A stretch of DNA of 64,000 bases from Jiella pelagia (lineage in GTDB: Bacteria > Pseudomonadota > Alphaproteobacteria > Rhizobiales > Rhizobiaceae). Each line of letters opens with the position of its first letter. Within the stretch, counting starts at the first letter, position 1. The notes under the pieces were generated by a model. It was given only the letters and a program-made list of their open reading frames with translations. It was not told where the DNA came from and made no database searches. The stretch spans positions 153,163 through 217,162 of the forward strand of contig NZ_CP114028.1 of the NCBI RefSeq assembly GCF_026898155.1, written 5' to 3'. This document shows, one piece after another, positions 44,797-60,510 of this stretch. A program made the position numbers and the translations under genes.

Positions 44797-44816
44797 GGCC
44801 GGTTCCCCTTGATGTG

Positions 44817-45416
44817 TCAGGAAGGAGCGCTTTCGCGGACGGAAGGGCGCTGGTGGAGGGTCGCTGCGAAATCGGCCAGGCCGGGATGGCTCTTGCGCCA
44901 GTCGAGGGCCGCGAAGCGAAAGTCGAGATAGCCGAGCGCGCAAGCCGTGGCGATGTTCCCGATATCGAAGGTCCCCGACGGGGAGATCTCAGCTTCCATC
45001 GCCACGAGCGCGTTCCGGATCTTGCTCACTTGGCCGTCGATCCAGTCCTGCCAGCGCAACGCCTCGGGGCGCAGGGTGGTCTCGTAACGCGCCAGAAGCG
45101 CCGCCTCCATCAGGCCATCCGCAAGAGCCTCGCGTCGCAAGGCGCGCCAGCCTTCGGACCCGGCCGGATAAAGGTCCGTTTCCTGGCCGAGATAGCGACA
45201 GATGACCGAGCTGTCATAAAGGACGCCGATCTCGGGCACGACGAGTGCCGGGATCTTGCCGAGCGGATTGACCTGCGTGACATCGGTCCGGCCCGCCAGC
45301 GGGCTCGCATGGACCGCCGTTAGGGACAGGCTGATCCCGACTTCTGCAGCGACGATCCGGACTTTGCGCGCAAAAGGCGAGGCCTCGGCGTAAAGCAGCA
45401 CCATCGGGTCCGTCAT
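44817..45416 (-). CDS. glutathione S-transferase family protein
   Basis: A 199-residue GST: N-terminal thioredoxin-like domain (MVLLYAEASPFARKVRIVAA, with VNPLGKIPALVVPEIGVLYD containing the cis-Pro, and SSVICRYLG for the Ser/Glu-type gamma-glutamyl contact), then the all-helical C-terminal domain (EALADGLMEAALLARYETTL, FDIGNIATACALGYLDFRFA). Its ATG overlaps the TRAP large permease stop codon (ATGA), so it is translated in the same operon. It could act as a maleylacetoacetate-isomerase-like or detoxifying enzyme. Confidence 0.88.
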   Translation of the reverse strand: MTDPMVLLYAEASPFARKVRIVAAEVGISLSLTAVHASPLAGRTDVTQVNPLGKIPALVVPEIGVLYDSSVICRYLGQETDLYPAGSEGWRALRREALADGLMEAALLARYETTLRPEALRWQDWIDGQVSKIRNALVAMEAEISPSGTFDIGNIATACALGYLDFRFAALDWRKSHPGLADFAATLHQRPSVRESAPS

Positions 45417-46705
45417 AGGAATGTCTCCGGCAGATAGAGCGCGATCGAAGGGATCAGCGTGAGCAGGAGGAGAACCAGGACGAGAGCGATAAAGAATGGC
45501 CAAGCCTGCTTGACGTAGTCTTCCATGCGCACCTTTGCGATGGAAATGGTGATGAACATCATCGTACCGACCGGTGGCGTGAAGCCTGCGATCGTCAGAT
45601 TGACCGCCATGACGATCCCGAGATGGATCGGGTCGATCCCCATTTGCGTCGCGACAGGCAGAAGAAGAGGCGTCATCAGGATGATCGCCGATCCGCCCTC
45701 GAAGAAGAAACCGATCACGAGGAGGAGGAGGTTGATGACGATGAGGAGCACGATCGGATTGTCGATCGACCCGACGAGGAAATTGGAGAAGGCCGCCGGC
45801 ACGCCTTCCCAGGTCATATAAGCGGCGAAGGCATTGGCGGCGCAGATGATGAACATGACGCCGGCCGTCGCGATCGCGGATTCTTCGACGATCTTGCCGA
45901 GGTCGCTCCATTTGAGTTCCCGGTAGACGACCGCGCCCACGAAGAGCGCGTAGACCACCGAGACCGCCCCCGCCTCGGTCGGCGTGAAGACGCCGAACCG
46001 CAGTCCCATGATGATGCCTAAGGGAAGTGCCAGTGCCCAGACGCTCGCCACGAGTGCGGACAGGATCTCGCGCGGCCCGGCACGGGTGTCGCGCGAGGGC
46101 ACGTAGCCTTTGCGCCGGGCGACGATCGAGACGGTGATCATGAGAACGATGGTGAGTAGGACGCCCGGCAGCAGCCCGGCCAGGAACATGCGGGCGACGG
46201 AGACGTCAGCGACGAGTGCGTACAGGATCAGGATGATCCCCGGCGGAATGATCGGCGTGATACAGGCCGAGGCGGCGGTGACGACCGTCGAGAAGGCCCG
46301 ATCATAGCCGAGCTTCTCCATCTGCGGCACGATCATTTTCGTCTGCATGGCGGCGTCGGCGTTGGCAGAGCCGGAGATGCCGCCCATCATCGCCGACAGG
46401 GCGACGTTCACCTGGGCCATGCCGCCGCGCATGTGACCGAAGAGCAGTTCGGCCAGGCTCATGAGACGGCTGGTGATGCCGGCATAGTTGAAGACTACGC
46501 CGGCACAGGTGAAGAAGGGAATGGCGAGATAGGGAAAGCTCTCCATCGAGGCGACCATGGTCTGGATCATGGTTTCCTTCGGCATGAAGGTGTTGATGAA
46601 GCCGAAATAGACCGCCGTCGATATCAACAGGGCCATGGCGATCGGAACGCGCAGGGCAAACAGCGCAAAGAGCAGGATCACCGGCGAGAAGGACAAAAAC
46701 GTCAC
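45413..46705 (-). CDS. dctM: TRAP transporter large permease (DctM-type)
   Basis: A 430-residue DctM protein with about 12 hydrophobic segments. Signatures: PVILLFALFALRVPIAMALL, SFPYLAIPFFTCAGVVFNYA, AMMGGISGSANADAAMQTKM, ASACITPIIPPGIILILYAL, and the C-terminal INLLLLVIGFFFEGGSAIIL and AGFTPPVGTMMFITISIAKV. It is the ion-coupled membrane subunit for uptake of an organic acid or sugar acid. Separated from dctQ by 230 bases that include a dispersed repeat and a hairpin, unusual inside an operon. Confidence 0.93.
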   Translation of the reverse strand: MTFLSFSPVILLFALFALRVPIAMALLISTAVYFGFINTFMPKETMIQTMVASMESFPYLAIPFFTCAGVVFNYAGITSRLMSLAELLFGHMRGGMAQVNVALSAMMGGISGSANADAAMQTKMIVPQMEKLGYDRAFSTVVTAASACITPIIPPGIILILYALVADVSVARMFLAGLLPGVLLTIVLMITVSIVARRKGYVPSRDTRAGPREILSALVASVWALALPLGIIMGLRFGVFTPTEAGAVSVVYALFVGAVVYRELKWSDLGKIVEESAIATAGVMFIICAANAFAAYMTWEGVPAAFSNFLVGSIDNPIVLLIVINLLLLVIGFFFEGGSAIILMTPLLLPVATQMGIDPIHLGIVMAVNLTIAGFTPPVGTMMFITISIAKVRMEDYVKQAWPFFIALVLVLLLLTLIPSIALYLPETFL

Positions 46706-46816
46706 GGAGGTCTCCCGAACTTGGGTTCAGCCCCCCGTGCCGCTCGGCCGTCGAAGGGTGGAAGGGGGTATCATCGCGAACGGCCAGGACTGTCGCGTTC
46801 GACCACACGCTAGAGG

Positions 46817-46902
46817 AAGACGCCAAAAAGGTGATCGACTTCTTGGATCGCAGCCTAAGAAAAACAAAGCGTTAGAGTGAAGTTGCGACGCAACTCGGTC
46901 GC
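46817..46902 (+). repeat. dispersed 86-bp repeat, copy A, between dctQ and dctM
   Basis: This 86-base sequence matches 49149-49234 at about 80 per cent by eye, without gaps. Shared blocks include AAGACGCCAAAAA, TGATCGACT, GAAAAACAAAG, AGAGTGAA and CTCGGTC. Copy A overlaps a hairpin formed by TAGAGTGAA (46873-46881) and TTCACTCTA (46905-46913), with an inner GCGAC/GTCGC pair. It appears to be a member of a small intergenic repeat family; I have no name for it. Confidence 0.7.
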
Positions 46903-46935: not shown

Positions 46936-47472
46936 TCAGAGTGCCGTATCGCGCGACATCTCCGCTTCGTGATCGTGATTGGGATCGCGGAAGGCGGGGT
47001 TCCGGACATCCTCGATCATGTGAACGGCCGAATAGATCGCCATCAGGCCGAAGGCGAGCAGGGGGGCGAGGTTGATCCAGAAATACGGGACTTCGAGAAC
47101 AGGCGTCTTGCGGATCCAGCCGCCCGATGCGAGCACCCATGCCAGCCAGCAGAACCAGAGATTGGCAACGAGGAGCAAAAAATTCACCGCGACGGCCAAC
47201 ACCCGCTGCGCCCCATAGGGAAACAGGCTGAAGAACAGATCCACCGCAATGAGCGCGCGCGTGCGGTAGAGCCAGGCAACGGCGGCGAAGATGGACCAGG
47301 TGAAACCCATATATGCGACCTCTTCCGCCGAGAGCACGCTCTGGGAAAACAGGTAGCGCATAAAGACATTCGCGACTATCACGGCGAGCATGACAACGAA
47401 GGCGGCGCCCGAGACGACGAGTTCGGCCTTGTCGGCAACCCGGCGCCAGAAGGGCTTGTCGGATGCGATCAT
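46936..47472 (-). CDS. dctQ: TRAP transporter small permease (DctQ-type)
   Basis: A 178-residue protein with four hydrophobic segments: VVSGAAFVVMLAVIVANVFM, VAYMGFTWSIFAAVAWLYRT (with the conserved EEVA before it), LAVAVNFLLLVANLWFCWLA and INLAPLLAFGLMAIYSAVHM. It matches the DctQ family in length and layout. The start at 47472 is preferred over the longer frame because the extension is arginine-rich without family match. Second gene of the TRAP operon. Confidence 0.88.
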   Translation of the reverse strand: MIASDKPFWRRVADKAELVVSGAAFVVMLAVIVANVFMRYLFSQSVLSAEEVAYMGFTWSIFAAVAWLYRTRALIAVDLFFSLFPYGAQRVLAVAVNFLLLVANLWFCWLAWVLASGGWIRKTPVLEVPYFWINLAPLLAFGLMAIYSAVHMIEDVRNPAFRDPNHDHEAEMSRDTAL

Positions 47473-47580
47473 GGAAAATCCTGACTGCTGATCGGGCCGG
47501 TCCCGGCGGCGCGCGTCCATCGGGAGCGGCCAGCCGGGAGAGACCGCCCCTCTGTGGCAGAAGGGCGGCGCAGGGCGCGA

Positions 47581-48579
47581 TCAGGCGATGATCTCGAGCA
47601 TCTTCTCGTACATGCCAGGCGTCCATTCCGGGAAGTTCTTCGGCGTTTCGGCCGCCGCGGCGATGAAGCCCGACTTGTCGACGTCGTTGAAGACGATGCC
47701 GGCTTCTTCCAGCTTGCCGCGATACTCGCTTTCGAGCCCCTCGATCATCGGCTGACGAATCGCCGTATAGTCACGCCCGACCGTGTCGAGCGCCTTCTTG
47801 GCCGGATCCGGCAGTCCGTCATAGATGCTCTGCGACATCACGATCGAAGTGGTGGCCACGAGATGGCCGGTGAGCGAGATGTAGGGCAGGGTTTCGTAGA
47901 GGCGGGCCGAATACAGGATCGACAGCGGGCTTTCCGCGCCTTCCGCAACGCCCTGGCTGAGCGCGGTATAGACTTCGGACCAGGCGGTGTTGGTAATCTC
48001 GCCACCGAGCACGCGGCCGACTTCGTTCCACATCTTGGTCGGCGCATTGCGGATCTTCATGCCGGCCGTGTCCTCGCGCTTCATGACCTGGCGCTTGGAG
48101 AGAAGATGGCGCGTGCCGAAATAGGTCATGGTCAGAACCCGCAGGCCGCGTTCGTGAAGCTTCTCCTCCCAACCCGCGACCATCTCGGAATTCCAGGCGG
48201 TTCCGATGTCTTCCGGCTTCTTGAACATGTACGGGGCCATGAAGATCGCGAAGTCGGGCACGTAATTGTAGAGATGGCTCGGATCACTGTCCTGGAGTAT
48301 GGGCGCGCCGCGAGACACCGCCTCGATCATGTCCACCGTCTTGCCGAGCGTTTCGGTGGGGAACACTTCGATCTTCAGCGTCCCATCGGACGCCTCTTCG
48401 ATCCGGCGTCCGAAATCCTGCCACATCGGGAACATCGGATCCTGATTGCCGATCACCATGTTCATCCGAAGAAGGGTTGGCGTCTGCGCGCGCAGGATCC
48501 GGGGCGCGGCGAGCCCCGCCGCCGTCACGGCGCCACCCAGCGCGATCGTCTTGAGAAAGTCCTTGCGTGTCAGTGTCAT
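47581..48579 (-). CDS. dctP: TRAP transporter substrate-binding protein (DctP-type)
   Basis: A 332-residue periplasmic protein. The N-terminal signal (TLTRKDFLKTIALGGAVTAA, cleaved around AQ at residue 32) looks Tat-like without a full twin arginine. The mature part has LLRMNMVIGNQDPMFPMWQD, RGLRVLTMTYFGTRHLLSKR, DTAGMKIRNAPTKMWNEVGR (carboxylate-binding arginine in KIRN) and GGEITNTAWSEVYTALSQGV. It binds a carboxylated substrate; regulon context suggests a sugar acid. First gene of the operon, downstream of the operator-like site at 48695. Confidence 0.92.
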   Translation of the reverse strand: MTLTRKDFLKTIALGGAVTAAGLAAPRILRAQTPTLLRMNMVIGNQDPMFPMWQDFGRRIEEASDGTLKIEVFPTETLGKTVDMIEAVSRGAPILQDSDPSHLYNYVPDFAIFMAPYMFKKPEDIGTAWNSEMVAGWEEKLHERGLRVLTMTYFGTRHLLSKRQVMKREDTAGMKIRNAPTKMWNEVGRVLGGEITNTAWSEVYTALSQGVAEGAESPLSILYSARLYETLPYISLTGHLVATTSIVMSQSIYDGLPDPAKKALDTVGRDYTAIRQPMIEGLESEYRGKLEEAGIVFNDVDKSGFIAAAAETPKNFPEWTPGMYEKMLEIIA

Positions 48580-48694: not shown

Positions 48695-48722
48695 ATGATG
48701 CATGATGTTTGAGCGAGGTCAA
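48695..48722 (-). promoter_or_regulatory. GntR-type operator and promoter of the TRAP operon
   Basis: The near-palindrome ATGATGCATGAT lies at 48695-48706. On the minus strand a TTGACC box (48722-48717) precedes it by 10 bases, giving a probable -35 with the operator in the spacer/-10 region, about 115 bases before dctP. The same motif and TTGACC occur at 54491 and 57676. Repression by the GntR protein at 49332 is inferred. Confidence 0.6.
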
Positions 48723-49148
48723 GGGGATTCGGTCGAGACGGACGTGTTTGGTGACCATGGCCCATGACGCGAAGCGAGGATGACGAGCGAAGCCAGGCCC
48801 CTCGACCGCGCTGATGATGGGTCGTGCTATGGCGATCCGCGAGACCGGCCCACGGGCTTTTACGAAGCCGTCTCAGCATGGCGGCCGGAGCGAATCGGCG
48901 GGCCAGATCGAGGGGGCCGTTCCTTGGTTGCGTGCGGCACAATCACTGCGCCGCCACACAAGCAGGTTTCGAGATGCCTTCAAGAGGGTCTAACGGCTTA
49001 ACCAGTTTCGTTACGCCGCCCGGGCGGCTGAAGGACCGGCCGGATCTGCCCGCGCAAGCGCGTGCGGATGCGGACTTGCAAAGCCGATTTGCCAGATGCG
49101 AACCGCCGCCTGGCCCAGCCCTGAACGGCCGGTCCTTCCGGCTGAAGT

Positions 49149-49234
49149 AAGACGCCAAAAAATTGATCGACTCTTTGGATCACGGCTTACGAAAAACAAA
49201 GGGTCAGAGTGAACATGCGACCCAGCTCGGTCAC
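49149..49234 (+). repeat. dispersed 86-bp repeat, copy B, downstream of the GntR gene
   Basis: Pairs with copy A at 46817-46902 in the same orientation. The right arm of the hairpin seen with copy A is not preserved here. Confidence 0.7.
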
Positions 49235-49331
49235 ACCACCCGGTCGATTATTGAGGCTCGTGGATTTTTCGAATTTGGCATTCGATGCGACGCTCGAAAC
49301 CAAGAGGGTGTCGAATGTCGAATTCAATCCA

Positions 49332-50021
49332 CTAGACGGCAGACGCCTTCAGCGTCCTTGCATCGCCCATATCGCCCATCTGGCAGATCAGATCCTCGGC
49401 CCAGACGATATCGTCCTGGATCGCCTTGCGGCTGCGAGCACTGTCGCGCGCCGCCAGCGCGTCGAGCAGTTCGTGATGCTTGTGCTCGTCGCTGGCGATT
49501 TCCCGGACGGGCATGCGCTGATGGAACAGGAGCAGGAACGGGCCGATCAGGGTCCACATCGTCTCGCAGACGCCTTCGAGGATCGGCATGCCGGACAGCC
49601 TGAGGACGGCGAAGTGGAAATCGCGGTTGAGAAGGCTCGCTTCAGCCGGGTCACGCGCCGCGGCGGCAATGAAACGCCCGTGAAGCTCGCGCAGATCGTC
49701 CAGCTGGTGTGGAGTTACGCGCTTGGCGGCCTCGAAGGCGGCACGCCCTTCCAGTTCTACGCGGATCGCCTGGATCTCCAGAAGCTGATCGGTGGTGAAA
49801 TGGGGCACCTGCACCGAGGTCGCGGCCCGCATTTCGAGGGCTCGTTCACTGACCAGCCGGAAGATCGCTTCTCGGACGGGCGTGATGGAGGTGCCGTATT
49901 CTTCGGCCAGTCCCGCGATCGTCAGACGATGCCCCGGTTCGTACTGGCCATTCATCAGCGCAAGACGCAGGCTCTGATAGAGCTGCTCGGAAAGGCTTTG
50001 CCGAACGATCTTCTTTGCCAT
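49332..50021 (-). CDS. GntR family (FCD) transcriptional regulator
   Basis: A 229-residue regulator: N-terminal GntR winged helix (LSEQLYQSLRLALMNGQYEP, RLTIAGLAEEYGTSITPVRE, AIFRLVSERALEMRAATSVQ) and a C-terminal FCD domain with metal/ligand histidines (NRDFHFAVLRLSGMPILEGV; SDEHKHHELLDALAARDSAR). The start at 50021 (MAKKIVRQSL) gives the family N terminus; an upstream frame extends to 50093 without family match. It lies between the TRAP operon and the dehydrogenase operon and is the most likely ligand-responsive repressor for the three ATGATGCATGAT sites. Confidence 0.9.
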   Translation of the reverse strand: MAKKIVRQSLSEQLYQSLRLALMNGQYEPGHRLTIAGLAEEYGTSITPVREAIFRLVSERALEMRAATSVQVPHFTTDQLLEIQAIRVELEGRAAFEAAKRVTPHQLDDLRELHGRFIAAAARDPAEASLLNRDFHFAVLRLSGMPILEGVCETMWTLIGPFLLLFHQRMPVREIASDEHKHHELLDALAARDSARSRKAIQDDIVWAEDLICQMGDMGDARTLKASAV

Positions 50022-50147
50022 TGTCCCCGTCTCGTACGAATTGCCGCAAGATGCGTCGCAAGGCCGGCTGAGGGTCCGGCGCATCGACTGCACGAGGCGC
50101 GGGCAAGCTCTTGGACGATCGCGCCGGCAGCGTCTGCGCGGACCCTA

Positions 50148-50614
50148 TCAGTTTCCAGATTGTTCCACGATCTCGATCAGCACACCGTGCGGATCCTTCA
50201 TATAAAGTCCGCGAAGTCCCTTGGCGATCCCTTCATCGATGGCGACGAGCCGGCCCTGTTCGGTCCCGCCCCCGCAAGGATCCGCGCGCGGAGCGCATCG
50301 ACATCTGCGGTACGTAGGCACAGATGCGCGACATTGCCCTGCGAGGCGCGCGCGGCGACAGGGTCGTCTTGCGGCGTTTCGAACTCAATGAACTCGATAT
50401 GGGTGCCATGCCCGTAGAGGTGGACGAGACGCACGGATGCGGACGGAACGCCCATGAAGTGACTGATCCACGCCTTTCGGCGCTCGCCGATCGGTTGGGC
50501 CTCGAAGCCGAGCACGTCTTCCCAGAAGCGCACGGAAGCCTCGATATCGGGGGTGATGAAGCCAGCGTGATCGAAGCGGATGTCAGGCAGGGCCGGGGCG
50601 TCTATGAGGCTCAT
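50148..50614 (-). pseudogene. VOC/glyoxalase family protein, single frameshift
   Basis: A ~155-residue vicinal-oxygen-chelate protein: FDHAGFITPDIEASVRFWED (first metal His), HGTHIEFIEFETPQDDPVAA with the metal-site His/Glu, NVAHLCLRTADVDALRARIL, then in another frame VAIDEGIAKGLRGLYMKDPH and GVLIEIVEQSGN. One G missing in the run at 50265-50267 breaks the frame. Restored, it has both VOC halves. The start overlaps the enolase-superfamily gene stop (ATGA). May be an epimerase, lyase or dioxygenase for the sugar-acid substrate. Confidence 0.78.
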
Positions 50615-51717
50615 GGCGTCAGGGTTTCCTTACGCAGGACGAAGGGCTGCAGTCCCGCCCAGTCGAGGGCGGTCCCGGCTCCCGGGTCGGCGGGGGCACA
50701 GGCGGCGCCGTCGGCGATCGAGAGCGGATGGAGAAGGATGTCGTCGATCGGATCTGCGCCCACTTCCGGCAGGATGGCCTCGATCCGGGTGACGATCTCG
50801 TCGGCGAAGGCCAGATGCTGGTGAAGCGTGGAGAAGACGTGGGGAATGACCGTCTTGTCCATTCGTCGGGCGAGCGCGAGACCGTCAAGCGCATAGCCGA
50901 GGCCGCCGGAGGCGGCTGCGTCCAGCCTGAGGATGTCGGCGCCCTCGCACATGTCGCGCAACGCGTCGATGTCGATCGCATCCTCGCCGAGGCAGAGCGG
51001 CACACGGGTTTCGGCCCGAAGGTCCGCCGCCACGCGCCATGCCGTGGGCGCGACGGGATCCTCCAGGAACAGCGCGCAGCAGTCCTCGGCGAGGCGGCAC
51101 CAGGGCAGGGCGTCATCGACGCGTTTGAACGACCAGTGCGCGTCGAGCCCGAACCGCGTCTGCGGCGGCAGCGCGGCGGCAAGCGCTTCGACGACGGCGC
51201 GATCGAAGGCGAAGTCGCCGCCGTCGATCATCAGCTTGATGGTCCGGAAGTCCCGATCCGCAAGGGACGCGCCCTCGCGCGCGGCGACGTCCGGCGTCAT
51301 GCCATATCCGATGACCGGCATGACCTCGACGCGATCGCGCACCGTGCCGAGCATGGCGTGCAAGGGTTGCCCGGCCCCCACCGCCATTGCGTCCCGGAGC
51401 GCAATGTCGCAGAGCGAGACGCCGCGCACCATGGTGGCACGTGGAGCGGGCGTCGGGCCGAGTGCCGTGAAGCGCAGCGTGTCGCGTGCATCGGTCGATG
51501 CGCCGAGATAGCGCCGCGCGGCCTCCACGACGACCTCGTAGAGCGGCATGCCCCTGTCATAGCCGAAGGCATTGCCCGTCGCGCCGTCGCTCAGCGTCAA
51601 GCGCAGGACGACATAGGCGCGCTCGCGAATTTCGAGCGTTCCGAGCCGAACCGGACGCTTCAGCGGCATCACGATCCGCGCGATCTCTGCGCGAGCAACT
51701 GTCGGAGCGTCGCTCAA
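50611..51717 (-). CDS. enolase superfamily protein (mandelate racemase/muconate cycloisomerase-like)
   Basis: A 368-residue enolase-superfamily enzyme. The start is a TTG at 51717 overlapping the SDR stop (TTGA), followed by SDAPTVARAEIARIVMPLKR. The barrel has FRTIKLMIDGGDFAFDRAVV (catalytic Lys), RFGLDAHWSFKRVDDALPWC (metal Asp), LFLEDPVAPTAWR (metal Glu), VPLCLGEDAIDIDALRDM (metal Glu-Asp) and MDKTVIPHVFSTLHQHLAFA (His). The set suggests an acid sugar dehydratase or racemase; no close match to a known subgroup is recognised. Part of the GldA/SDR operon. Confidence 0.85.
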   Translation of the reverse strand: MSDAPTVARAEIARIVMPLKRPVRLGTLEIRERAYVVLRLTLSDGATGNAFGYDRGMPLYEVVVEAARRYLGASTDARDTLRFTALGPTPAPRATMVRGVSLCDIALRDAMAVGAGQPLHAMLGTVRDRVEVMPVIGYGMTPDVAAREGASLADRDFRTIKLMIDGGDFAFDRAVVEALAAALPPQTRFGLDAHWSFKRVDDALPWCRLAEDCCALFLEDPVAPTAWRVAADLRAETRVPLCLGEDAIDIDALRDMCEGADILRLDAAASGGLGYALDGLALARRMDKTVIPHVFSTLHQHLAFADEIVTRIEAILPEVGADPIDDILLHPLSIADGAACAPADPGAGTALDWAGLQPFVLRKETLTP

Positions 51718-52520
51718 CTGGAGGCTCCGAGATTCTGGCTCTCGACCAGGATCGAATTGCTGGTCATACCCCCGTCGACCATCAGAAGCTGGCCGGTGAC
51801 GAAGCCGGCCGCGTCGGAGGCGAGGAAGACGGCCGTGCCGGTCAGTTCCTCGGGCTCTGCCCAGCGCGCCATCGGCGTCCGGTCGATTACCGCCTGCTCG
51901 AAGGGCGTGCCGAGAACGTGGCGGTTCATTTCGGTGAGAATGTAGCCCGGACCGATCGCGTTCACGGTGATGTTGTGGGGGCCGAGTTCGGCCGCCAGAC
52001 CCCGAGTCAGGCCGAGGACGCCGTGCTTGGCCGCGACATAAGAAATCACGCCGGGCCGCGAGGAGATCGACATCACCGAACCGGTGTTGATGATCCGCCC
52101 CCGGCGCTGGCGCTTCATCGGCCGCGCGCATGCCCGTGCCATGGCATAGACGGCGTTGAGATTGATGTCGATGACGCGGCCGAAATCGCCCATGCCATGC
52201 TCGTCGATCGGCGCCCGGATGAGGATGCCGGCATTGTTCATCAAGGTGTCGAGCCGACCGGTCTCGGCCAGGATCCGGTCGACATGGCCGTCGAGGGCGT
52301 CGTAATCGGTGACGTCGAAGACTGCCGGCCGTGCAGAACCGCCGGCGGCCTCGATCGCGTGGCAGGCTTCTTCGGCAGGCTCCGCGCGCAAATCGTTGAT
52401 GATGACCTGCGCGCCGGCTTCCGCTAGCGCCGTGGCGAAGGCTAGCCCGATCCCGCGACCGGCGCCGGTGACGAGGGCCACATGGCCCGTGAGCGAGAAT
52501 GCCGCCGTTCCGCGCGCCAT
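51714..52520 (-). CDS. SDR family oxidoreductase, IdnO (5-ketogluconate reductase)-like
   Basis: A 268-residue classical SDR: GHVALVTGAGRGIGLAFATA (TGxxxGIG), AQVIINDLRAEPAEEACHAI, LDTLMNNAGILIRAPIDEHG (NNAG), GRIINTGSVMSISSRPGVIS (Ser), YVAAKHGVLGLTRGLAAELG (YxxxK), NAIGPGYILTEMNRH and RTPMARWAEPEELTGTAVFL. The overall pattern, especially the NDL and APGY/EM regions, resembles gluconate 5-dehydrogenase IdnO. With the L-idonate-5-dehydrogenase-like gene at 54555 this suggests a keto-aldonate pathway. Ends in a 4-base overlap with the enolase-superfamily gene. Confidence 0.85.
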   Translation of the reverse strand: MARGTAAFSLTGHVALVTGAGRGIGLAFATALAEAGAQVIINDLRAEPAEEACHAIEAAGGSARPAVFDVTDYDALDGHVDRILAETGRLDTLMNNAGILIRAPIDEHGMGDFGRVIDINLNAVYAMARACARPMKRQRRGRIINTGSVMSISSRPGVISYVAAKHGVLGLTRGLAAELGPHNITVNAIGPGYILTEMNRHVLGTPFEQAVIDRTPMARWAEPEELTGTAVFLASDAAGFVTGQLLMVDGGMTSNSILVESQNLGASS

Positions 52521-52521
52521 A

Positions 52522-53593
52522 TCAGGCGGCCTCGATGCGCTGGATGGCGTCGGCGATGTCCTTGGCGGTCAATTCCCGGTCGAACTTCTTCATGTGGGAC
52601 GCAGCTGCCGAAAGTTCGGCGATCGTGTCGATCGTCGAGTTGGAGGTCCGGTCGGCGCCGAGGCTCGGCAAGTGTCAGGGGAAGCTGGGCGGCGCGGAAA
52701 AAGGCGCGCATGTCCTGCATGAAGGCCGCGTCGCGCCGTTCGAGCTCAAGCTGAACGAGCAGGCCATAGGCCACCTGATGACCATGCAGCGCCCGCGCGA
52801 CACCCGGTACTGCCGAGAGGCCGCGCGTCATGCCGTGGCTGACGGAAAGCCCACCGCTTTCGAAGGCCAAGCCGCTCATCAGCACCGCCGCCTCGACAAG
52901 CGCTTCGAAGGCCGCATTGGGCGTTCCTGCGGCATGGGCGGCATAGGCATCCGTCAGATTGTCCCGCACCGTATCGTAGCAGGCTCTGGCGAGAGCGAGG
53001 GCGCTCAGGGGCGATTTCGCACCAAACACGTTGTTTCCGCCGGCGCCGATGCACTGCTCCACCTCGAAGACCTTCACCAGCGCGTCGCCGACGCCGGCGG
53101 ACAGCAATGCGAGGGGCGCCTTGATGATCACAGCGGTGTCGACGAGGACGAGATCGGGATTGGCCTTATTCTCCTCGACGCCGACGATCTTGTGGTCGGC
53201 GTCGTAGATCACGGCGATATGGCTCGTCGGACTGTCGTTGGAGGCCACCGTGGGAACTGAGACAAAGGCCGCGCCGGCGTCGCGCGCCACCATCTTTGCT
53301 GTGTCGATGGTCTTTCCGCCCCCGGCGCCAATGACGATCGCGGGGCGATCGCCGGCGATCAGAGCACCCAGTCGCGCGATCTCGTCATAGGTGATCTCGC
53401 CGGCAAAGGGCAGGGCGCGCAAGGCGACGCCGGCCTCGGCCGCGCTGGCCGATACCTCCCTTTCGACGAGGGCCATCACCCGGTCGTCCGCGATCAGGAC
53501 CGCACTCTGTCCGAGGGCGGCCAGTTCGCCGCCGATCGATGCGAGGACGCCGGGTCCCTGGATGTAGCGTCGCGGCGCTCCGAAGACGATCAT
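52522..53593 (-). pseudogene. GldA-like iron-containing alcohol dehydrogenase, single frameshift
   Basis: A ~356-residue group III metal-dependent alcohol dehydrogenase of the glycerol dehydrogenase type: MIVFGAPRRYIQGPGVLASI, AIVIGAGGGKTIDTAKMVAR (GGGxxxD), FVSVPTVASNDSPTSHIAVI, LLSAGVGDALVKVFEVEQCI with the metal-binding Asp, and LSVSHGMTRGLSAVPGVARA, LHGHQVAYGLLVQLELERRD with metal His. One surplus base near 52667 shifts the last ~50 residues, which in the restored frame read TIDTIAELSAAASHMKKFDR. It would oxidise a polyol such as glycerol or a sugar alcohol with NAD. Confidence 0.82.
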
Positions 53594-53634
53594 CTTACTC
53601 TCTCCTCCTGGATCTGACGGTCGGTCGACGCCGG

Positions 53635-54447
53635 TCAGGCGGCGTCGCCGAGCAAAAAATCGATGAATGGGTCGATCTGCCCGAGCAGCATCTCGCGGCC
53701 GGGAACCACGGTCGCACCCCGCTCGGCGGCGGCCTCAAGCAGCGGAGTGACAGCGGGTGCCATGATGACCTCGGCAACCGTCATTCCCGGGCCGATCGTC
53801 TCCGTCTGAACCGGCAACGGGTCGCCCGCATGCATCCCGAGCGACGTCGCGTTGATCACAAGGTCGAAGCCGGCGGCACTCGGCTCATCGGCAATGCCGA
53901 GTTCCGGCGCGATATCGCGTTCGAGCGCGAGCCGCGACAATCGCTCGATCATGTCCTCGGCCCTCTGACGGGTCCTGTTGCAGACCTCGATGCGGGCAGC
54001 GCCGGCCTCGACGAGCGCTGCGGCGATCGCGAGAGCGACGCCGCCTGCGCCAACAATGAGGACCTTCGATCCGGCGGGGTCGATACCGGACCGGCGCAGG
54101 CCGCCGACAAAACCCTCGCCATCGAGGATGCGGCCGACAAGGCTGCCGTCTCGATGCCGCTTGATCACATTGGCGACCTTCAGGATCGCCGCGACACCTT
54201 CGAGGCGGTCGCACAGAGCGGCGGACGTCTCCTTGTGCGGGATCGTCACAATGGCGCCGGCGACGCTCTCGGCTTGGCGCAGCGCATCCATCATCTCCGC
54301 CAGATGAGCCGGCGCGACCTGCCAGGGCACGAGAACCGCATTGAGGCCCCGCTCTTCGCAGCGCGGGTTGAACAATTGCGGTGTTTTCAGATGGGCGGCC
54401 GGATAGGCCAGATGGACGAGTACGGACGTGGTCCCGTCAATCGTCAT
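53635..54447 (-). CDS. shikimate dehydrogenase-like (AroE family) oxidoreductase
   Basis: A 270-residue AroE-type protein: SVLVHLAYPAAHLKTPQLFN at the N terminus, GAIVTIPHKETSAALCDRLE with the catalytic Lys of the TIPHK motif, GEGFVGGLRRSGIDPAGSKV, LIVGAGGVALAIAAALVEAG (nucleotide binding), EVCNRTRQRAEDMIERLSRL with NRT for NADP, and DLVINATSLGMHAGDPLPVQ. Located at the head of a catabolic operon rather than with aromatic amino acid genes, so it may act on a quinate-like or other cyclic polyol. GGGAGGA ribosome binding site precedes the ATG. Confidence 0.85.
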   Translation of the reverse strand: MTIDGTTSVLVHLAYPAAHLKTPQLFNPRCEERGLNAVLVPWQVAPAHLAEMMDALRQAESVAGAIVTIPHKETSAALCDRLEGVAAILKVANVIKRHRDGSLVGRILDGEGFVGGLRRSGIDPAGSKVLIVGAGGVALAIAAALVEAGAARIEVCNRTRQRAEDMIERLSRLALERDIAPELGIADEPSAAGFDLVINATSLGMHAGDPLPVQTETIGPGMTVAEVIMAPAVTPLLEAAAERGATVVPGREMLLGQIDPFIDFLLGDAA

Positions 54448-54490
54448 GAATCCTCCCCGCCAGGCGAACGAGCCCGGCTTGTTGTGGTAC

Positions 54491-54518
54491 ATGATGCATG
54501 ATATTTGATCGAGGTCAA
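54491..54518 (-). promoter_or_regulatory. GntR-type operator in the AroE-like / IdnD-like divergent region
   Basis: ATGATGCATGAT lies at 54491-54502, with TTGACC on the minus strand at 54518-54513, exactly 10 bases away as at 48695. It lies about 45 bases before the AroE-like gene and about 50 bases before the divergent dehydrogenase start at 54555, so it could control both. Confidence 0.6.
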
Positions 54519-54554
54519 GGGAGCCGGAGGGGCTCCGCCAGAACCGGAGGATCC

Positions 54555-55592
54555 ATGTCCACCACACTCATACTCGACGCGCCGAGACAGCTGCGGATCG
54601 AAAGCCGCCCGATCGGCGTACCCGGTCCCGGCGAGATCCGCGTGCGGATCGCTTATGGCGGCATATGTGGATCGGATCTCCATTATTTTCTGCTTGGCGG
54701 GTTCGGCAAGGTCAGGATGCGCGGTCCCATGGTCCTTGGACACGAGATCTGCGGGACGGTCGAGGCTGTCGGCGAAGGCGTCGATGCGGGGCGGATCGGG
54801 CAATCGGTCGCCGTCAATCCATCGCTGGCCTGCGGCACCTGCGAGGAATGCCGCGCCGGCGCTCCCCGCTTCTGCACCGATATGCGCTTCATGGGCAGCG
54901 CGATGCGCAATCCGCCGATCGAGGGTGGTTTTCGCGAGCATGTCGTCTGCCGCGCCGAACAGGGGGTTCCCTTCGCCTCCGATGCCCTCGAGGAAGCGGC
55001 AATGGCCGAGCCTCTGGCAGTCTGTCTGCATGCCGTGGGCCAGGCGCCCGACCTGTCGGGCAAACGCGTCCTGATCACGGGGTTCGGTCCGATCGGCGCC
55101 TTGTGTCTGCTGGCCGCCCGCCACGCCGGCGCCGCCGAGATCGTCGTCACGGACGTCGCCGAGGCTTCGCTCGATCTTGCGAGGCGGATCGGCGCGGATC
55201 AGGCGCTCGAAAGCTCCCGTCCGGGCGCCCTCGACGCGCAGACCGCTGGACGCGGCCGGATCGATGTGAGCTTCGAGTGCTCCGCCCATCCGAGCGCGAT
55301 CGCCGACGTCATCGCGGCGACGCGGCCGCGCGGCACGATCGTTCAGGTCGGCATGCTCGGTGCCGAAACCACCGCCCCGCTCACGCATGTCGTGACCAAG
55401 GAGCTGAATTTTCGGGGCAGTTTCCGCTTCGATGCCGAATTTGCTCGGGCCGTCGACCTGATTGCAACGCGCGGCATCGACGTGCGGCCGCTGATCAGCG
55501 CCCGCTTTCGGCTCGCCGACGCCGATTCGGGCTTTGCGCTGGCGCAGGACCGCAGCCGGGCGATGAAGGTCCTGTTCGACCTGACCACCTGA
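54555..55592 (+). CDS. L-idonate 5-dehydrogenase-like zinc alcohol dehydrogenase
   Basis: A 345-residue MDR dehydrogenase. Catalytic zinc: RIAYGGICGSDLHYFLLGGF (Cys) and PMVLGHEICGTVEAVGEGVD (His-Glu). Structural zinc: LACGTCEECRAGAPRFCTD with four cysteines. NAD binding: RVLITGFGPIGALCLLAARH, GAAEIVVTDVAEASLDLARR. The GICGSDLHYF and FMGSAMRNPPIEGGFREHVV blocks are those of IdnD. Start set at MSTTLILDAP with GGAGGA 8 bases upstream. Divergent from the AroE-like operon, with the shared GntR-type site between. Confidence 0.85.
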   Translation: MSTTLILDAPRQLRIESRPIGVPGPGEIRVRIAYGGICGSDLHYFLLGGFGKVRMRGPMVLGHEICGTVEAVGEGVDAGRIGQSVAVNPSLACGTCEECRAGAPRFCTDMRFMGSAMRNPPIEGGFREHVVCRAEQGVPFASDALEEAAMAEPLAVCLHAVGQAPDLSGKRVLITGFGPIGALCLLAARHAGAAEIVVTDVAEASLDLARRIGADQALESSRPGALDAQTAGRGRIDVSFECSAHPSAIADVIAATRPRGTIVQVGMLGAETTAPLTHVVTKELNFRGSFRFDAEFARAVDLIATRGIDVRPLISARFRLADADSGFALAQDRSRAMKVLFDLTT

Positions 55593-55688
55593 GGCCGTGC
55601 CATTGCGGCCCGCGGGGCTGCCCGTTGGCGCGGGTCTCGCTCGTCGGAAAGGACCCGGTTCCCGGCGTCCCTGATGGTTCGAGAAAGA

Positions 55689-55734
55689 GCGAAGGCCAGG
55701 AGGATCGGCTCTCCCGGCCTTCGCCGCTCGTTTT
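55689..55734. terminator. bidirectional terminator between IdnD-like gene and transketolase operon
   Basis: GCGAAGGCC at 55689-55697 and GGCCTTCGC at 55716-55724 form a 9-bp stem that continues with four more pairs past one mismatch, followed by TTTT at 55731-55734 on the plus strand. It lies between two converging genes and fits a rho-independent terminator for both. Confidence 0.75.
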
Positions 55735-55755
55735 ATGATCATACGGACCCGTTTG

Positions 55756-56736
55756 TCAGAGCAGGGCCTCGGCAACCTCCCTGATGCCCGGTCCATCGAG
55801 CTTGTAGTGCTGGTAAAGGCGCATCGGTGGTGAGATCAGGGCGTATTCGTCCATGATCCCGTGACGCTTGAGGCGCGCTCTTCCGGGGTTCTCCGCCATG
55901 ATTTCGGCGACCGCCGAGCCGAGCCCGCCAAGAATATTGTGCTCCTCGACGGTGAGAACCACGCGCGAACGGCCCGCCGCCTCGAGCACCGCCGCCTCGT
56001 CGAGCGGCTTGATCGTGTGCATGTCGATCAGTCCGGCCGAATGCCCGGCCGCGTTAAGGGCGTCGACCGCCTGTTTCGCCCCATGGACCGCCATGCCGCA
56101 GGCGATGATGGTGATGTCGTCACCGATCCCATGCACCTTGGCCTTGCCGAGTTCGAAGCTTTCGTCCCTGTCGTAGACGACCGGATCATGGCCGCGGCCG
56201 ATGCGGAAATAGATCGGCTCGGCATAGGTCGCCGAATGGCGAAGCAGCTGCCGGAACTGGGCGCCGTCGGCCGGCGAGACGACCGTGAGATCGGCGATGG
56301 CCCGCATCGTCGAGATGTCCTCGGTCGCGTGATGCGAGGTGCCGTAAAAGCCCATCGAGATGCCGGTGTGATGGCCGATCAGCCGGACCGGCTGGGCGCA
56401 ATAGGCGACGTCCATGCGGATCTGCTCGCAGGCGAGAAGGCCGATGAAGGAGGCGAAGGTCGCCACATAGGGGATCATGCCGGTCGTCGCGATGCCCGCG
56501 GCGGCCGAAACCATGTTCTGCTCCGAAATGCCGAACTGGATGAAGCGATCCGGATATTCGCCAGCGAATTTCACGAGGCCGTTGGAATGCTGGAGGTCGG
56601 CCGTCCCGGCCGCGACGGGATGCCCCTCGCGCGCCAGTTCGATCAGGGTGTCGGCGAGGACCGATAAAGACGGCGCGCGGCTGTTGAGGTCGCGATACTG
56701 CCAGCTGTCCGCGGTGAGGTCGGGTTTGACGTTCAT
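55756..56736 (-). CDS. transketolase C-terminal subunit
   Basis: A 326-residue protein holding the pyrimidine-binding and C-terminal domains of transketolase: TLIELAREGHPVAAGTADLQ, DRFIQFGISEQNMVSAAAGI with the catalytic Glu of the GISEQNM block, YVATFASFIGLLACEQIRMD, RLIGHHTGISMGFYGTSHHA, and the C-terminal VVLTVEEHNILGGLGSAVAE. Split transketolase pairs are found in catabolic clusters for unusual sugars. Start at 56736 because it overlaps the N-subunit stop (ATGA). Confidence 0.92.
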   Translation of the reverse strand: MNVKPDLTADSWQYRDLNSRAPSLSVLADTLIELAREGHPVAAGTADLQHSNGLVKFAGEYPDRFIQFGISEQNMVSAAAGIATTGMIPYVATFASFIGLLACEQIRMDVAYCAQPVRLIGHHTGISMGFYGTSHHATEDISTMRAIADLTVVSPADGAQFRQLLRHSATYAEPIYFRIGRGHDPVVYDRDESFELGKAKVHGIGDDITIIACGMAVHGAKQAVDALNAAGHSAGLIDMHTIKPLDEAAVLEAAGRSRVVLTVEEHNILGGLGSAVAEIMAENPGRARLKRHGIMDEYALISPPMRLYQHYKLDGPGIREVAEALL

Positions 56737-57605
56737 GCTACCTCTCCGCAGGAGGTGATCCGGGTCGTCAGGATGGTCTGGCGGGCTTTTTCGCTGTCTT
56801 CGGGCGAGAGATAGCCGAGATGCCATCCCGGTTCGGTTTCCATATAGCTGATGCCTCGCCCCTTCACCGTCTTGGCGACGATGCAGCAGGGCGCCTTTCG
56901 GGACGTGTCAGCCTTGACCCGCCTGAGCAGCTGCGTCAGAGAGACGATGTCGTGGCCGTCGACCTCGTGGACCTCCCATCCGAAGGCGCGCCATTTCTCC
57001 GCCAGCGGCTCGATTGCCATCACGTCGTCCACCTTGCCGTCGAGCTGATAGCCGTTGCGGTCGATGATCGCGATAACGTTGGACAGACGATGGCTGGCAG
57101 CGGAGATCGCCGCCTCCCAAACTTGTCCCTCCTGCATCTCGCCGTCGCCCAGCATGACGAAAACGTCGAATTCGAGCTTCTTCATGCGCCCGCCAAGCGC
57201 GATGCCGACACCGTTCGACAGCGCATGACCGATCGATCCGGAGCTGAAATCGACCCCGGGGACCTTGCGCATGTCGGGATGGTCGCCGAGCGGGCTGCCG
57301 AGCCGGGTATAGCTATCGAGCCATTCGGCTGGGAAATAGCCCTTGTCGGCAAGGATGGGAAAGAGTCCGACGGCCGCATGGCCTTTGCCCATCAGGAAGC
57401 GGTCGCGCTCGGGCCAGGCTGGATCCTCGGACAGCGCCATGACGTCGTAATACAGAGCTGAGAAGATCTCAGCGCAGGAGAAGACGGACGAATAATGCCC
57501 GACCTTGGCAATCTCTATAAGCCGAATCGTTTCAAGGCGAACAAACCGAGCCCGGTCCTCTAATTGCTCGATTTGCTCCTGCGAAAGATCACTGTTGGCA
57601 GTCAA
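56733..57605 (-). CDS. transketolase N-terminal subunit
   Basis: A 290-residue thiamine-diphosphate-binding half: GHYSSVFSCAEIFSALYYDV, RFLMGKGHAAVGLFPILADK, GDHPDMRKVPGVDFSSGSIG, VFVMLGDGEMQEGQVWEAAI (GDG...) followed by NVIAIIDRNGYQLDGKVDDV (the N of the TPP motif). The start is a TTG at 57605 preceded by GGGAGGA at 8 bases; the upstream in-frame extension is not needed. With the C subunit it transfers two-carbon units between sugar phosphates or related compounds. Confidence 0.92.
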   Translation of the reverse strand: MTANSDLSQEQIEQLEDRARFVRLETIRLIEIAKVGHYSSVFSCAEIFSALYYDVMALSEDPAWPERDRFLMGKGHAAVGLFPILADKGYFPAEWLDSYTRLGSPLGDHPDMRKVPGVDFSSGSIGHALSNGVGIALGGRMKKLEFDVFVMLGDGEMQEGQVWEAAISAASHRLSNVIAIIDRNGYQLDGKVDDVMAIEPLAEKWRAFGWEVHEVDGHDIVSLTQLLRRVKADTSRKAPCCIVAKTVKGRGISYMETEPGWHLGYLSPEDSEKARQTILTTRITSCGEVA

Positions 57606-57675
57606 TGTTAATCCTCCCTTGCCTTCGGGTTCGCCGCGCACTGTTCGCGGGACAATCTCATCCTCAAGGTCTTAT

Positions 57676-57710
57676 ATCATGCATCATATATGATATTTAC
57701 GAAAGGTCAA
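57676..57710 (-). promoter_or_regulatory. GntR-type operator and promoter of the transketolase operon
   Basis: On the minus strand, ATGATGCATGAT spans 57687-57676, preceded by TTGACC at 57710-57705 with 17 bases between. Here TATGAT overlapping the operator could be the -10 box, 16 bases after TTGACC. The motif is the same as at 48695 and 54491, though the spacing differs. Confidence 0.55.
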
Positions 57711-58390: not shown

Positions 58391-59359
58391 ATGAAAACCA
58401 GACTACTGATGGCTGCCGTCTTTTCGGCCGGCATGGCCCTGACCGCCAGTGCCCAGGCGAAGGACTCCGATCAAGACTGGTCGGGCATCAACATCTTGCT
58501 TTTGAACTGGTCGCAGTCGTCGAACCCGTTCTTCGAAGCCGTCAACAACGGCGCGAAGGACGCGGCAGAGGATCAAGGCGTCACTCTCGACATCCAGTTC
58601 GGCGAGGAAGACCCGATCACCCAGACCAACAAGCTCGAGGCGGCGATCGCCTCAGGGGTGGACGGCATTTCGGTCGGGATCGCCGACGACGACGCCTATG
58701 ACGACATTCTGTGCCGCGCCATGGATCAGGGCATCGCCGTCGTCACCAACAATATCGACGACACCAAGGGTGCCGAGGGAACCTGCCGTCTCGCCTTCAT
58801 GGGGCAGAACTTCGTCGAGGCTGGCTATACCCTTGGCAAGCGGATGATCAAAGATCACGACATCGGCGAAGGCGATCTCGTCTTCACGCCGGTCGAGGCG
58901 CCGGAGGGCAATTACGCGGTGAAACGTCACGAGGGCGTGCAAAAGGCCCTCGAGGAGGTTGGTGCGACCTCGGAAATCCTCGGTACGGGCAACGATCACG
59001 GCACCGCGCTGAACTTGATGACCCAGTACCTTCTCGGCCATCCGGACGTCAAAGCGATCATCAGCCTCGGTCAGACGCCGAATAGCCAGGCGGTCCAGGC
59101 GGCGAAGGACGCGGGTCTCGATAACCTGCCGATCGGTGGTTTCGACATATCGAAGTCGATCCTGCAAAACATCGCCGATGGCGAGATGACGGCGGCGGTC
59201 GACCAGCAGCCTTACAGCCAGGGCTACTACTCGGTCACGCAATTGGCGCTTTACATCAAATACGGGCTCTATCCGTCCGAGATGGATACGGGCGGCGCCG
59301 GCCTGGTGGATAAGTCGAACTACGACAAGGCGGAGAAGTGGGCGGGCGAGATCCGCTGA
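58391..59359 (+). CDS. sugar ABC transporter substrate-binding protein
   Basis: A 322-residue Peripla_BP_4 protein with signal peptide KTRLLMAAVFSAGMALTASA QA. The mature part has INILLLNWSQSSNPFFEAVN, GVTLDIQFGEEDPITQTNKL, EAAIASGVDGISVGIADDDA and KAIISLGQTPNSQAVQAAKD. It differs from the two inositol-operon binding proteins in its N-terminal sugar contacts, so it should bind another ligand, perhaps a derivatised sugar. GGAGG lies 8 bases before the ATG. First gene of the operon. Confidence 0.92.
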   Translation: MKTRLLMAAVFSAGMALTASAQAKDSDQDWSGINILLLNWSQSSNPFFEAVNNGAKDAAEDQGVTLDIQFGEEDPITQTNKLEAAIASGVDGISVGIADDDAYDDILCRAMDQGIAVVTNNIDDTKGAEGTCRLAFMGQNFVEAGYTLGKRMIKDHDIGEGDLVFTPVEAPEGNYAVKRHEGVQKALEEVGATSEILGTGNDHGTALNLMTQYLLGHPDVKAIISLGQTPNSQAVQAAKDAGLDNLPIGGFDISKSILQNIADGEMTAAVDQQPYSQGYYSVTQLALYIKYGLYPSEMDTGGAGLVDKSNYDKAEKWAGEIR

Positions 59360-59437
59360 TCATAAGGCAGATGCCAAGCGTACCCGGCAGCGAAGGCGCT
59401 GCCGGGCCACTCAAGTCATCCCTTAGGAGGAACGCCG

Positions 59438-60500
59438 ATGAGCGTCTCACAATCGGATCACATCCATGCCGCGATCGCGGCACGGAACGACCGGGGCTTC
59501 GCATCGAAAGCCATCGACTGGATCCGTACTCGGCCCGAAGGCGGGATCGCCGTCCTCTTCGTCCTGGTCCAGATCGCCTGTATCGTCGGGGCACTCGCCT
59601 TTCCGTCGAGCTTTCGCTACCTATCCGAGGCCAATATCGCCGTCCTCTTGAAGTCGATCGCGCCGATCGGCATCATGGCGCTCGGCGTGGGCGTCTTAAT
59701 GATCGCTGGCGAGTTCGATCTGAGTGTCGGCGCTCTTTACTCCTTCTGCGCCATCGTCGCGGCGACGATCACCAACCAGTTGGGCGGCGATATCGGCCTG
59801 GAGAACGCCAGCGCCTTGGCGCCGTTCATCGGCATGGCCATCGGACTTGCGATCGGCACGGCAACGGGGGTGTTGCATGCGCAGATCACGCTCCGCTTCG
59901 GCATTCCCTCCTTCATCACGACGCTCGGCGCGATGCTTCTCTGGAAGGGCGCGACGCTGCTTTATCACGGTGCGGCTTCGCTCCGGTACAAGCCGTCGGA
60001 ACCCTTCGCGACCATTTTTAACGGCCATATCGGAGTGGTCCATGCCTCGATCATCTGGTTCGCGATCTGCGCGGTGATCTTCTACTTCATTCTGCATCAT
60101 CACCGGATCGGCAATCACTTCTACGCGGTCGGCGGCAACCAGAAGGCCGCCGTGGCGATCGGCATCAATCCCGGCAGGACCAAGACCATCGCCTTTGCGA
60201 TGACCGGCTTCATGGCGGCCCTGTCAGGGATCATCGCCGGGGCCCGCGTTTCCTCGATCCAGCCGGGCGGCGGCCTCGGTCTCGAGGCTCGTCGCCATCG
60301 CGGCCTGCGTGATCGGGGGGCACGCTTTGATGGGCGGGCGCGGCTCGATCCTCGGCATCGTGCTCGGAACCTGCCTCATGTACACGATCCAGGATGTTCT
60401 GCTCCTCCTGCGGGCACCGGGATTTTACTTCGAGATGTTCGTCGGCGCGCTGATCGTGATCGCCGTGATCATGAACATGGCCATTCGCCGCAAGAACTGA
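59438..60500 (+). pseudogene. sugar ABC transporter permease, single frameshift
   Basis: A ~353-residue RbsC-type permease. Visible: GGIAVLFVLVQIACIVGALA, IAPIGIMALGVGVLMIAGEF, DLSVGALYSFCAIVAATITN (CUT2 signature) and the cytoplasmic loop GGNQKAAVAIGINPGRTKTI. One surplus G at 60286-60287 shifts the frame; removal gives GLGLELVAIAACVIGGHALM, followed by GGRGSILGIVLGTCLMYTIQ and the last helix FYFEMFVGALIVIAVIMNMA. GGAGG ribosome binding site before the ATG at 59438. Pairs with the ATPase 10 bases downstream. Confidence 0.85.
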
Positions 60501-60510
60501 GGACAGACGC

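Follow-up and report, generated by a model that had tools for sequence, protein, structure and literature searches.

Do the three minus-strand gene runs in a 64,000-nt stretch of Jiella pelagia DNA (contig NZ_CP114028.1, positions 153,163 to 217,162; this whole stretch is called the window below) obey one regulator, and if so, through which operator? The original prediction saw a candidate regulon in them, with promoters sharing the 12-bp word ATGATGCATGAT and a nearby GntR-type protein with an FCD domain. The word indeed lies at 48695-48706 (+), 54491-54502 (+) and 57676-57687 (-), and it belongs to short arrays placed between and over the predicted -35 and -10 elements of one likely catabolic cluster (Table 1). 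The cluster's own GntR/FCD protein, which is McbR-like, likely binds these arrays as a repressor, a reading to which we give a probability of about 0.86. The position, rarity, conservation and 7-bp phasing of the arrays, their geometry relative to TTGAC and their covariation with regulator residues were computed or observed directly.

The word is neither frequent nor randomly distributed in the genome. Across the 5,945,794 bases searched (5.95 Mb in 3 contigs, 84.97% complete), exact ATGATGCATGAT occurs three times, always at these promoters. The looser pattern ATSATRYATSAT matches five places in the genome, four at the three cluster promoters and one at C1:4502969, and a control with the reversed pattern matched nowhere in the same sequence. 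Within the window, the four occurrences of ATSATRYATSAT compare with a mean of 0.03 in 200 dinucleotide shuffles, none of which contained more than one. The copy at C1:4502969 is taken as chance; it sits on the ATG of an unrelated reading frame, which we take, from the look of its translation, to encode a sorbosone/PQQ-dehydrogenase-like protein.

ATSAT pentamers (S, C or G), repeated at a pitch of 7 bp, make up the operator. This is plainest at the third site, where two overlapping palindromes have one pentamer in common, the second being ATCATATATGAT at 57683-57694. Among 66 copies of ATSATNNATSAT, the central two bases were GC in 34 and AT in 27 (61/66). The flanks of 47 anchors from 18 loci chosen by hand (L009, L053, L054 and L070 left out) matched ATSAT in at least four of five bases at 37/94 positions when the gap was 2 nt, against 0-9/94 for each of the fourteen other gaps between 0 and 14. 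In 63 pentamer pairs the S bases read C..G 24 times, C..C 16, G..G 15 and G..C 8; inverted and direct pairs thus both occur in the 7-bp register. The original prediction had described a near-palindrome fitting GntR operators. The near-symmetry stands, but the unit is a periodic array, and ATSAT-RY-ATSAT lacks the GT...AC of the canonical palindromic consensus of the GntR/FadR subfamily (PMC4494728).

The placement of the arrays suggests what they do. TTGACC had been proposed as a shared box 10, 10 and 17 nt before the 12-mer, and these distances hold, except that the third is likewise 10 when counted to ATCATATATGAT, which gives all three window promoters, on the minus strand, a common TTGACC-N10-array layout. 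The second pentamer starts 17 nt past TTGACC, where a -10 element belongs, so that TTGACC is best read as a -35 box, most likely that of the promoter itself rather than a separate box, and repression is indicated. TTGACC alone is frequent (25 occurrences in the window, both strands), and only its spacing to the operator is therefore informative. Over 55 arrays from the window and related loci (labelled L004 and onwards), the gap from TTGAC to the array is 11 nt in 15, the three window arrays among them, and 10-12 nt in 18; the latter spacing is found in 9/10 promoters of the aroE set and 8/9 of the TRAP set, window included. Much of the flank varies across the ten loci of the aroE set, around elements that are kept: TTGAC, an atcaaa stretch, the array and, in the divergent -35 box, ACAA.

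That divergent promoter belongs to idnD, a plus-strand gene beginning 52 bp from operator 2 that the original prediction had missed. A predicted TTGTNN-N17-TANNNN promoter lies over operator 2 at the same offset in 8/10 loci (the window, L005-L009, L053 and L054); of the ten compared, L004 has no such promoter for idnD, and L055, in which idnD is located elsewhere, has it at another offset. The predicted overlap of operator and promoter on both strands would fit sigma-70-type promoters under a repressor.

Comparison with relatives extends these observations. One contig scan with the GntR protein yielded 19 loci, to which 12 plasmid loci, picked from 22 records, were added. Arrays are present at all loci whose regulators are 58-82% identical to ours (L004-L011) and absent from the eleven loci L012-L022 (L012 53%, the others 30-44%). 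Conservation at the same three promoters, a check proposed with the original prediction, is complete: clusters that keep the TRAP genes (L004-L009, L053, L054) have arrays ahead of tkt, in the idnD-aroE intergenic region and ahead of the TRAP genes, in 8/8 loci each. Vreelandella, Roseovarius, Chelativorans and Agrobacterium are among the hosts of such loci. Arrays precede cluster genes even where no TRAP match was obtained and the genes are ordered differently, as in the loci of Bosea, Shinella, Sinorhizobium, Paraburkholderia, Cupriavidus and others.

The 18 array-bearing loci (398,567 bp) contain 59 copies against 0.3 expected by shuffling, and the 13 other loci none against 0.06 expected. 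The figure for the 13 is a description and not a blind test, as the grouping was made after the motif had been seen; L012, with its 53% identical regulator and no motif, is counted among the 13, and the other 12 regulators are below 45%. The near relatives L008, L009, L053 and L054 were all kept in the shuffle, TTGAC-gap and wing counts. The cluster is patchy in its distribution, as close matches to GntR are few: besides the window copy, the search of 201 relative genomes gave two matches of 48 and 53%, with mostly at most 41% otherwise among the matches listed, and in 385 genomes of the class only the window's own GntR appeared at E 1e-42. It was seen in alpha-, beta- and gammaproteobacteria, on plasmids as well as on other contigs.

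These comparisons bear on the idea that the identical words are promoter duplications by common descent which no regulator reads. Sites 1 and 2 do have 32 bp in common, with three differences. The flanks, however, vary among the Vreelandella, Roseovarius, Chelativorans and Bosea loci around a constant array, and the Paraburkholderia and Cupriavidus clusters have arrays despite the lack of a TRAP match, which leaves duplication scarcely credible as the explanation.

The motif also changes together with the regulator. Among 44 loci scored, 12 of them newly fetched (4 by GntR from the 22 records mentioned above, 8 by transketolase from 42 records), regulators with an AAT (19) or EAT (1) wing tip beside transketolase genes go with ATSAT in 20/20 loci and with AASTT in none. 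Those with an SGR wing beside transketolase have AASTT arrays upstream of tkt in 11/11, and ATSAT in none. Sister regulators of this kind, 42-44% identical (Azospirillum, Mesorhizobium, Aquamicrobium, Pararhizobium), adjoin the same transketolase pair, and ATCTT-AT-AASTT-AT-AAGTT or close variants, in the same 7-bp frame, lie upstream of it.

Neither ATSAT nor AASTT arrays were found in 12 remaining loci: L012 (AAT wing, 6.2 kb), L018-L022 (distant regulators), L073, L076 and L079 (other wings) and three transketolase loci in which no GntR relative was detectable. By eye, from palindrome and 11-mer lists, L076 (Phaeobacter) and L079 (Tritonibacter), both with an SPR wing, have ATAAT-GT-ATAAT-A(T/C)-ATTAT upstream of tkt, and L073 (Variovorax), with a TAK wing, has AGGAT-AT-ATCCT there; each palindrome recurs elsewhere in its own locus. 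Seven further stretches gave an array in L080 (AAT), an array by the looser ATNAT only in L081 (AST), AASTT in L086 (SGR), and neither array type in the four with other wings. L074, a sister locus, retains Phe54 together with AASTT, so that Phe54 is not the switch, and the change of Ile53 to Cys and the wing remain.

This covariation also bears on the possibility that the arrays are read by another factor (the LacI-type protein encoded at 41911-42942, for instance, or a paralog of GntR encoded elsewhere) and that the local GntR targets something else. Further regulators do exist nearby and in the genome, but the array type tracks the local GntR across taxa and rearranged gene orders and shifts with wing and recognition-helix residues; we consider another reader highly improbable. 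The candidate regulon itself is strongly supported at the level of sequence by rarity, conservation and the match of motif to regulator (20/20 against 11/11).

We give about even odds to a broader proposal: a McbR-like GntR branch that has lost the arginine contact to G (see below) recognizes near-self-complementary pentamers in modular arrays with a 7-bp pitch, and its specificity evolves through exchanges at the wing tip (AAT, SGR, SPR, TAK) and at one residue of the recognition helix (Ile53 to Cys or Leu). Such exchanges would account for the different arrays, ATSAT, AASTT, ATWAT and AGGAT, that precede the same genes for the split transketolase. If true, nature would have provided a ready-made recognition code, with array length setting the strength of repression.

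Several observations weigh against repression by this GntR protein. TTGAC is missing at 10-12 nt from 37/55 arrays. In 9/55 it follows the array by 2-3 nt (by 2 nt in eight), and eight of these nine arrays are upstream of tkt; the tkt promoters of L004-L009, L053 and L054 have the array in this position and not over the -10 element. Arrays thus have two kinds of placement relative to the promoter, either covering the -10 element or adjoining the -35 element, and 28/55 show neither. There are three GntR paralogs in the genome. The loci share ancestry, so that the counts are not independent events (L008, L009, L053 and L054 are near relatives). No array is present on the L012 contig (6.2 kb; regulator 53% identical, AAT wing), which begins inside tktC and so excludes the tkt promoter; L010 and L059 have the strict ATSAT array elsewhere than at the transketolase gene; and L062, with an SGR wing and no transketolase, has neither an AASTT nor an ATSAT array.

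An array abutting the -35 box from upstream could be used by an activator, and GntR might accordingly bind as an activator or a dual regulator. Such a role is distinctly unlikely, given the array over the -10 element at the three window promoters and at nearly all promoters of the aroE and TRAP sets counted above. A further ATGAT inside the -35/-10 spacer of tkt in L008, L009, L053 and L054 likewise speaks for the repressor.

The protein has the domains of a GntR/FCD (VanR-type) regulator, with Pfam PF00392 at 51.5 bits (cut-off 27) and PF07729 at 76.6 bits (cut-off 24.3). Its predicted model (predicted local distance difference test score 90.7) has a first helix from residue 10, the recognition helix at residues 46-58, wing strands at 63-66 and 69-71, and a C-terminal part with six helices of at least 10 residues. 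McbR/YncC of E. coli, a GntR-family protein of the FCD type and VanR group, is the closest solved relative (E 1.2e-27; profile E 2.5e-44) and the nearest fold to the model (template-modelling score 0.83 by query length). Both have the same SITPVRE recognition helix. McbR is said to favour an ATATAT motif (PMC13343897), close to the ATATAT/ATGCAT core of the operators described here; the difference lies in the arrays at three promoters of one cluster.

In Atu1419, the VanR of Agrobacterium fabrum, the essential G3 of ATGTATACAT is read by Arg45, with additional DNA contacts from Thr46 and Arg49; an Arg45-type arginine reads G in FadR as well (PMC7797058). By the spacing of Thr and Arg, these positions are Ile46, Thr47 and Arg50 in our protein, all invariant in a 33-sequence alignment (A1). 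The recognition-helix arginine, typical of the family although not universal, is therefore missing in 33/33 homologs, and in 31/31 aligned regulators of the locus set its place is taken by Ile, Val, Met or Ser, with Ile also in McbR. Replacement of the G-reading arginine would account for C and G occurring alike at the third base of the half-site, and the absence of arginine matches an operator without GT/AC. Atu1419 is likewise an FCD protein of the VanR group at a catabolic locus, with palindromes over -10 boxes. It differs in its 10-bp palindrome read through Arg45, as opposed to a 12-bp unit with C or G as third base, an isoleucine, and chaining at 7 bp.

NanR of E. coli is another FCD-type GntR repressor acting on short repeats, its dimers binding the three repeats of (GGTATA)3 cooperatively (PMC8012715). 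Its repeats differ from ours, and its cooperativity requires a 32-residue N-terminal extension that the protein studied here lacks, so that its dimers, if they cooperate, would have to do so through a different contact. For 23 orthologous groups of the GntR family, additional half-sites have been described (Suvorova 2015, PMC4494728) as weaker boxes 7-12 nt from the site centre. The extra boxes of our arrays, unlike those, are often of full strength, keep a 7-bp register and lack the GT/AC consensus.

From these data we infer the following scheme, in which promoters, binding, repression, effector and substrate are predicted. Bound along the arrays, GntR dimers would keep RNA polymerase off all three minus-strand promoters and off that of the divergent idnD, until a pathway substrate or intermediate binds the FCD domain and releases the repressor. 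TRAP uptake, the aroE-gldA-SDR-enolase-VOC-gntR run, idnD and the split transketolase would then be induced together, and gntR, the last gene of the aroE run behind VOC (gap 176 bp), would be autoregulated through operator 2. By analogy with NanR on (GGTATA)3 (PMC8012715), three-pentamer arrays may bind more than one dimer.

The regulator class and operators made of repeated half-sites are already known. In the open-licence PubMed Central (PMC) literature, judged by titles and the beginnings of abstracts, the motif words occur in no paper concerning a GntR operator, and no description of this split-transketolase cluster was found there. Our searches of it also yielded no counterpart of the operator letters, of their 7-bp pentamer grammar, of the matched specificity series or, in such a setting, of the missing Arg-G contact. 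The sugar-acid regulons reconstructed for Halomonas and others in PMC5507952 include GntR/TRAP loci for L-gulonate and other sugars, and no 'transketolase' is counted in that paper; its motifs, given in a supplement, may overlap with ours. The result is a regulon backed by comparative genomics for a split-transketolase catabolic cluster. The matched regulator and operator sets differ in few residues and in two base-pair positions per half-site, and so open DNA recognition by GntR proteins without the conserved arginine to direct testing; the substrate of the cluster might emerge from a screen for inducers.

The features of the cluster are collected in Table 1. The gene names given in the original prediction were borne out by profile searches of the window proteins, while its operon layout lacked both idnD and the position of gntR at the end of the aroE run.

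Table 1. Genes, predicted promoters and operators of the cluster, in window coordinates.
Feature	Position	Strand	Remarks
TRAP large permease	45413..46705	-	profile search
TRAP small permease	46936..47520	-	weak profile match only, below cut-off
TRAP solute-binding protein DctP	47581..48579	-	profile search
Operator 1	48695..48706	-	ATCAT-GC-ATCAT, weak third slot ATTTT; upstream of TRAP genes; same place in L004-L009, L053, L054
Predicted -35 box TTGACC, TRAP promoter	48717..48722	-	10 nt before array
GntR/FCD regulator, 229 amino acids, McbR-like	49332..50021	-	recognition helix 46-58, wing tip 66-68 (AAT)
VOC/glyoxalase-fold protein	50198..50614	-	profile search
Enolase-superfamily (MR/MLE) protein	50611..51645	-	profile search
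SDR dehydrogenase, gluconate 5-dehydrogenase-like	51714..52520	-	profile search
GldA-like iron-containing dehydrogenase	52485..53593	-	3' part seemingly in another frame in this assembly
AroE-like, shikimate dehydrogenase fold	53635..54453	-	profile search
Predicted divergent idnD promoter TTGTTG-N17-TATTTG	54479..54507	+	overlaps operator 2
Operator 2	54491..54502	-	ATCAT-GC-ATCAT; divergent aroE-like/idnD promoter region
Predicted -35 box TTGACC, aroE promoter	54513..54518	-	10 nt before array
L-idonate 5-dehydrogenase-like zinc dehydrogenase (idnD)	54555..55592	+	divergent from aroE
Transketolase C-terminal half	55756..56736	-	profile search
Transketolase N-terminal half	56733..57605	-	likely TTG start 57605 after GGGAGGA; profiles run on the open reading frame from 57641
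Operator 3	57676..57694	-	ATCAT-AT-ATGAT-GC-ATGAT; upstream of split transketolase
Predicted -35 box TTGACC, transketolase promoter	57705..57710	-	10 nt before array

Judging by its enzymes, the cluster may oxidize a sugar acid or polyol and take off a two-carbon unit with the split transketolase; the substrate is possibly a sugar acid or a keto-polyol cleaved by that enzyme. The TRAP binding protein, the enolase and the AroE-like protein match solved structures, the names of which point to no specific substrate. A mutant transketolase produces tartaric semialdehyde (PMC12016104), which led us to consider a route through 5-keto-gluconate and that compound; such a route seems rather unlikely. 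An ABC system at 58391-61314 was examined as a fourth target and rejected, as the array is about 700 bp off and its binding protein is unmatched in the mapped loci.

In four annotated clusters of the AASTT type (L063, L068, L072, L074), the split transketolase is accompanied by aminotransferases and ABC-type uptake genes, and in three of the four by an amidase. Because such genes adjoin it, this transketolase family may also serve amine-containing substrates. A cluster on the Rhodococcus plasmid RQCS_2 (L078) comprises transketolase, enolase, succinate-semialdehyde dehydrogenase and L-idonate dehydrogenase, with an IclR regulator in the place of GntR and neither an ATSAT nor an AASTT array.

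The aldehyde dehydrogenase frame at 43336-44838 (-), behind the TRAP and GST genes, is broken by an in-frame TAA; several relatives give one unbroken match in the same clusters. The 3' ends of the gldA-like gene (about 52590-52700, -) and of an ABC permease gene (60290-60330, +) seem to run on in another frame. In view of an assembly of 84.97% completeness in 3 contigs, these two apparent frame shifts may stem from assembly indels and not from decay of the genes. A direct repeat of 92 nt, 82% identical, lies at 46809-46900, inside the TRAP gene run, and at 49141-49232, downstream of gntR.

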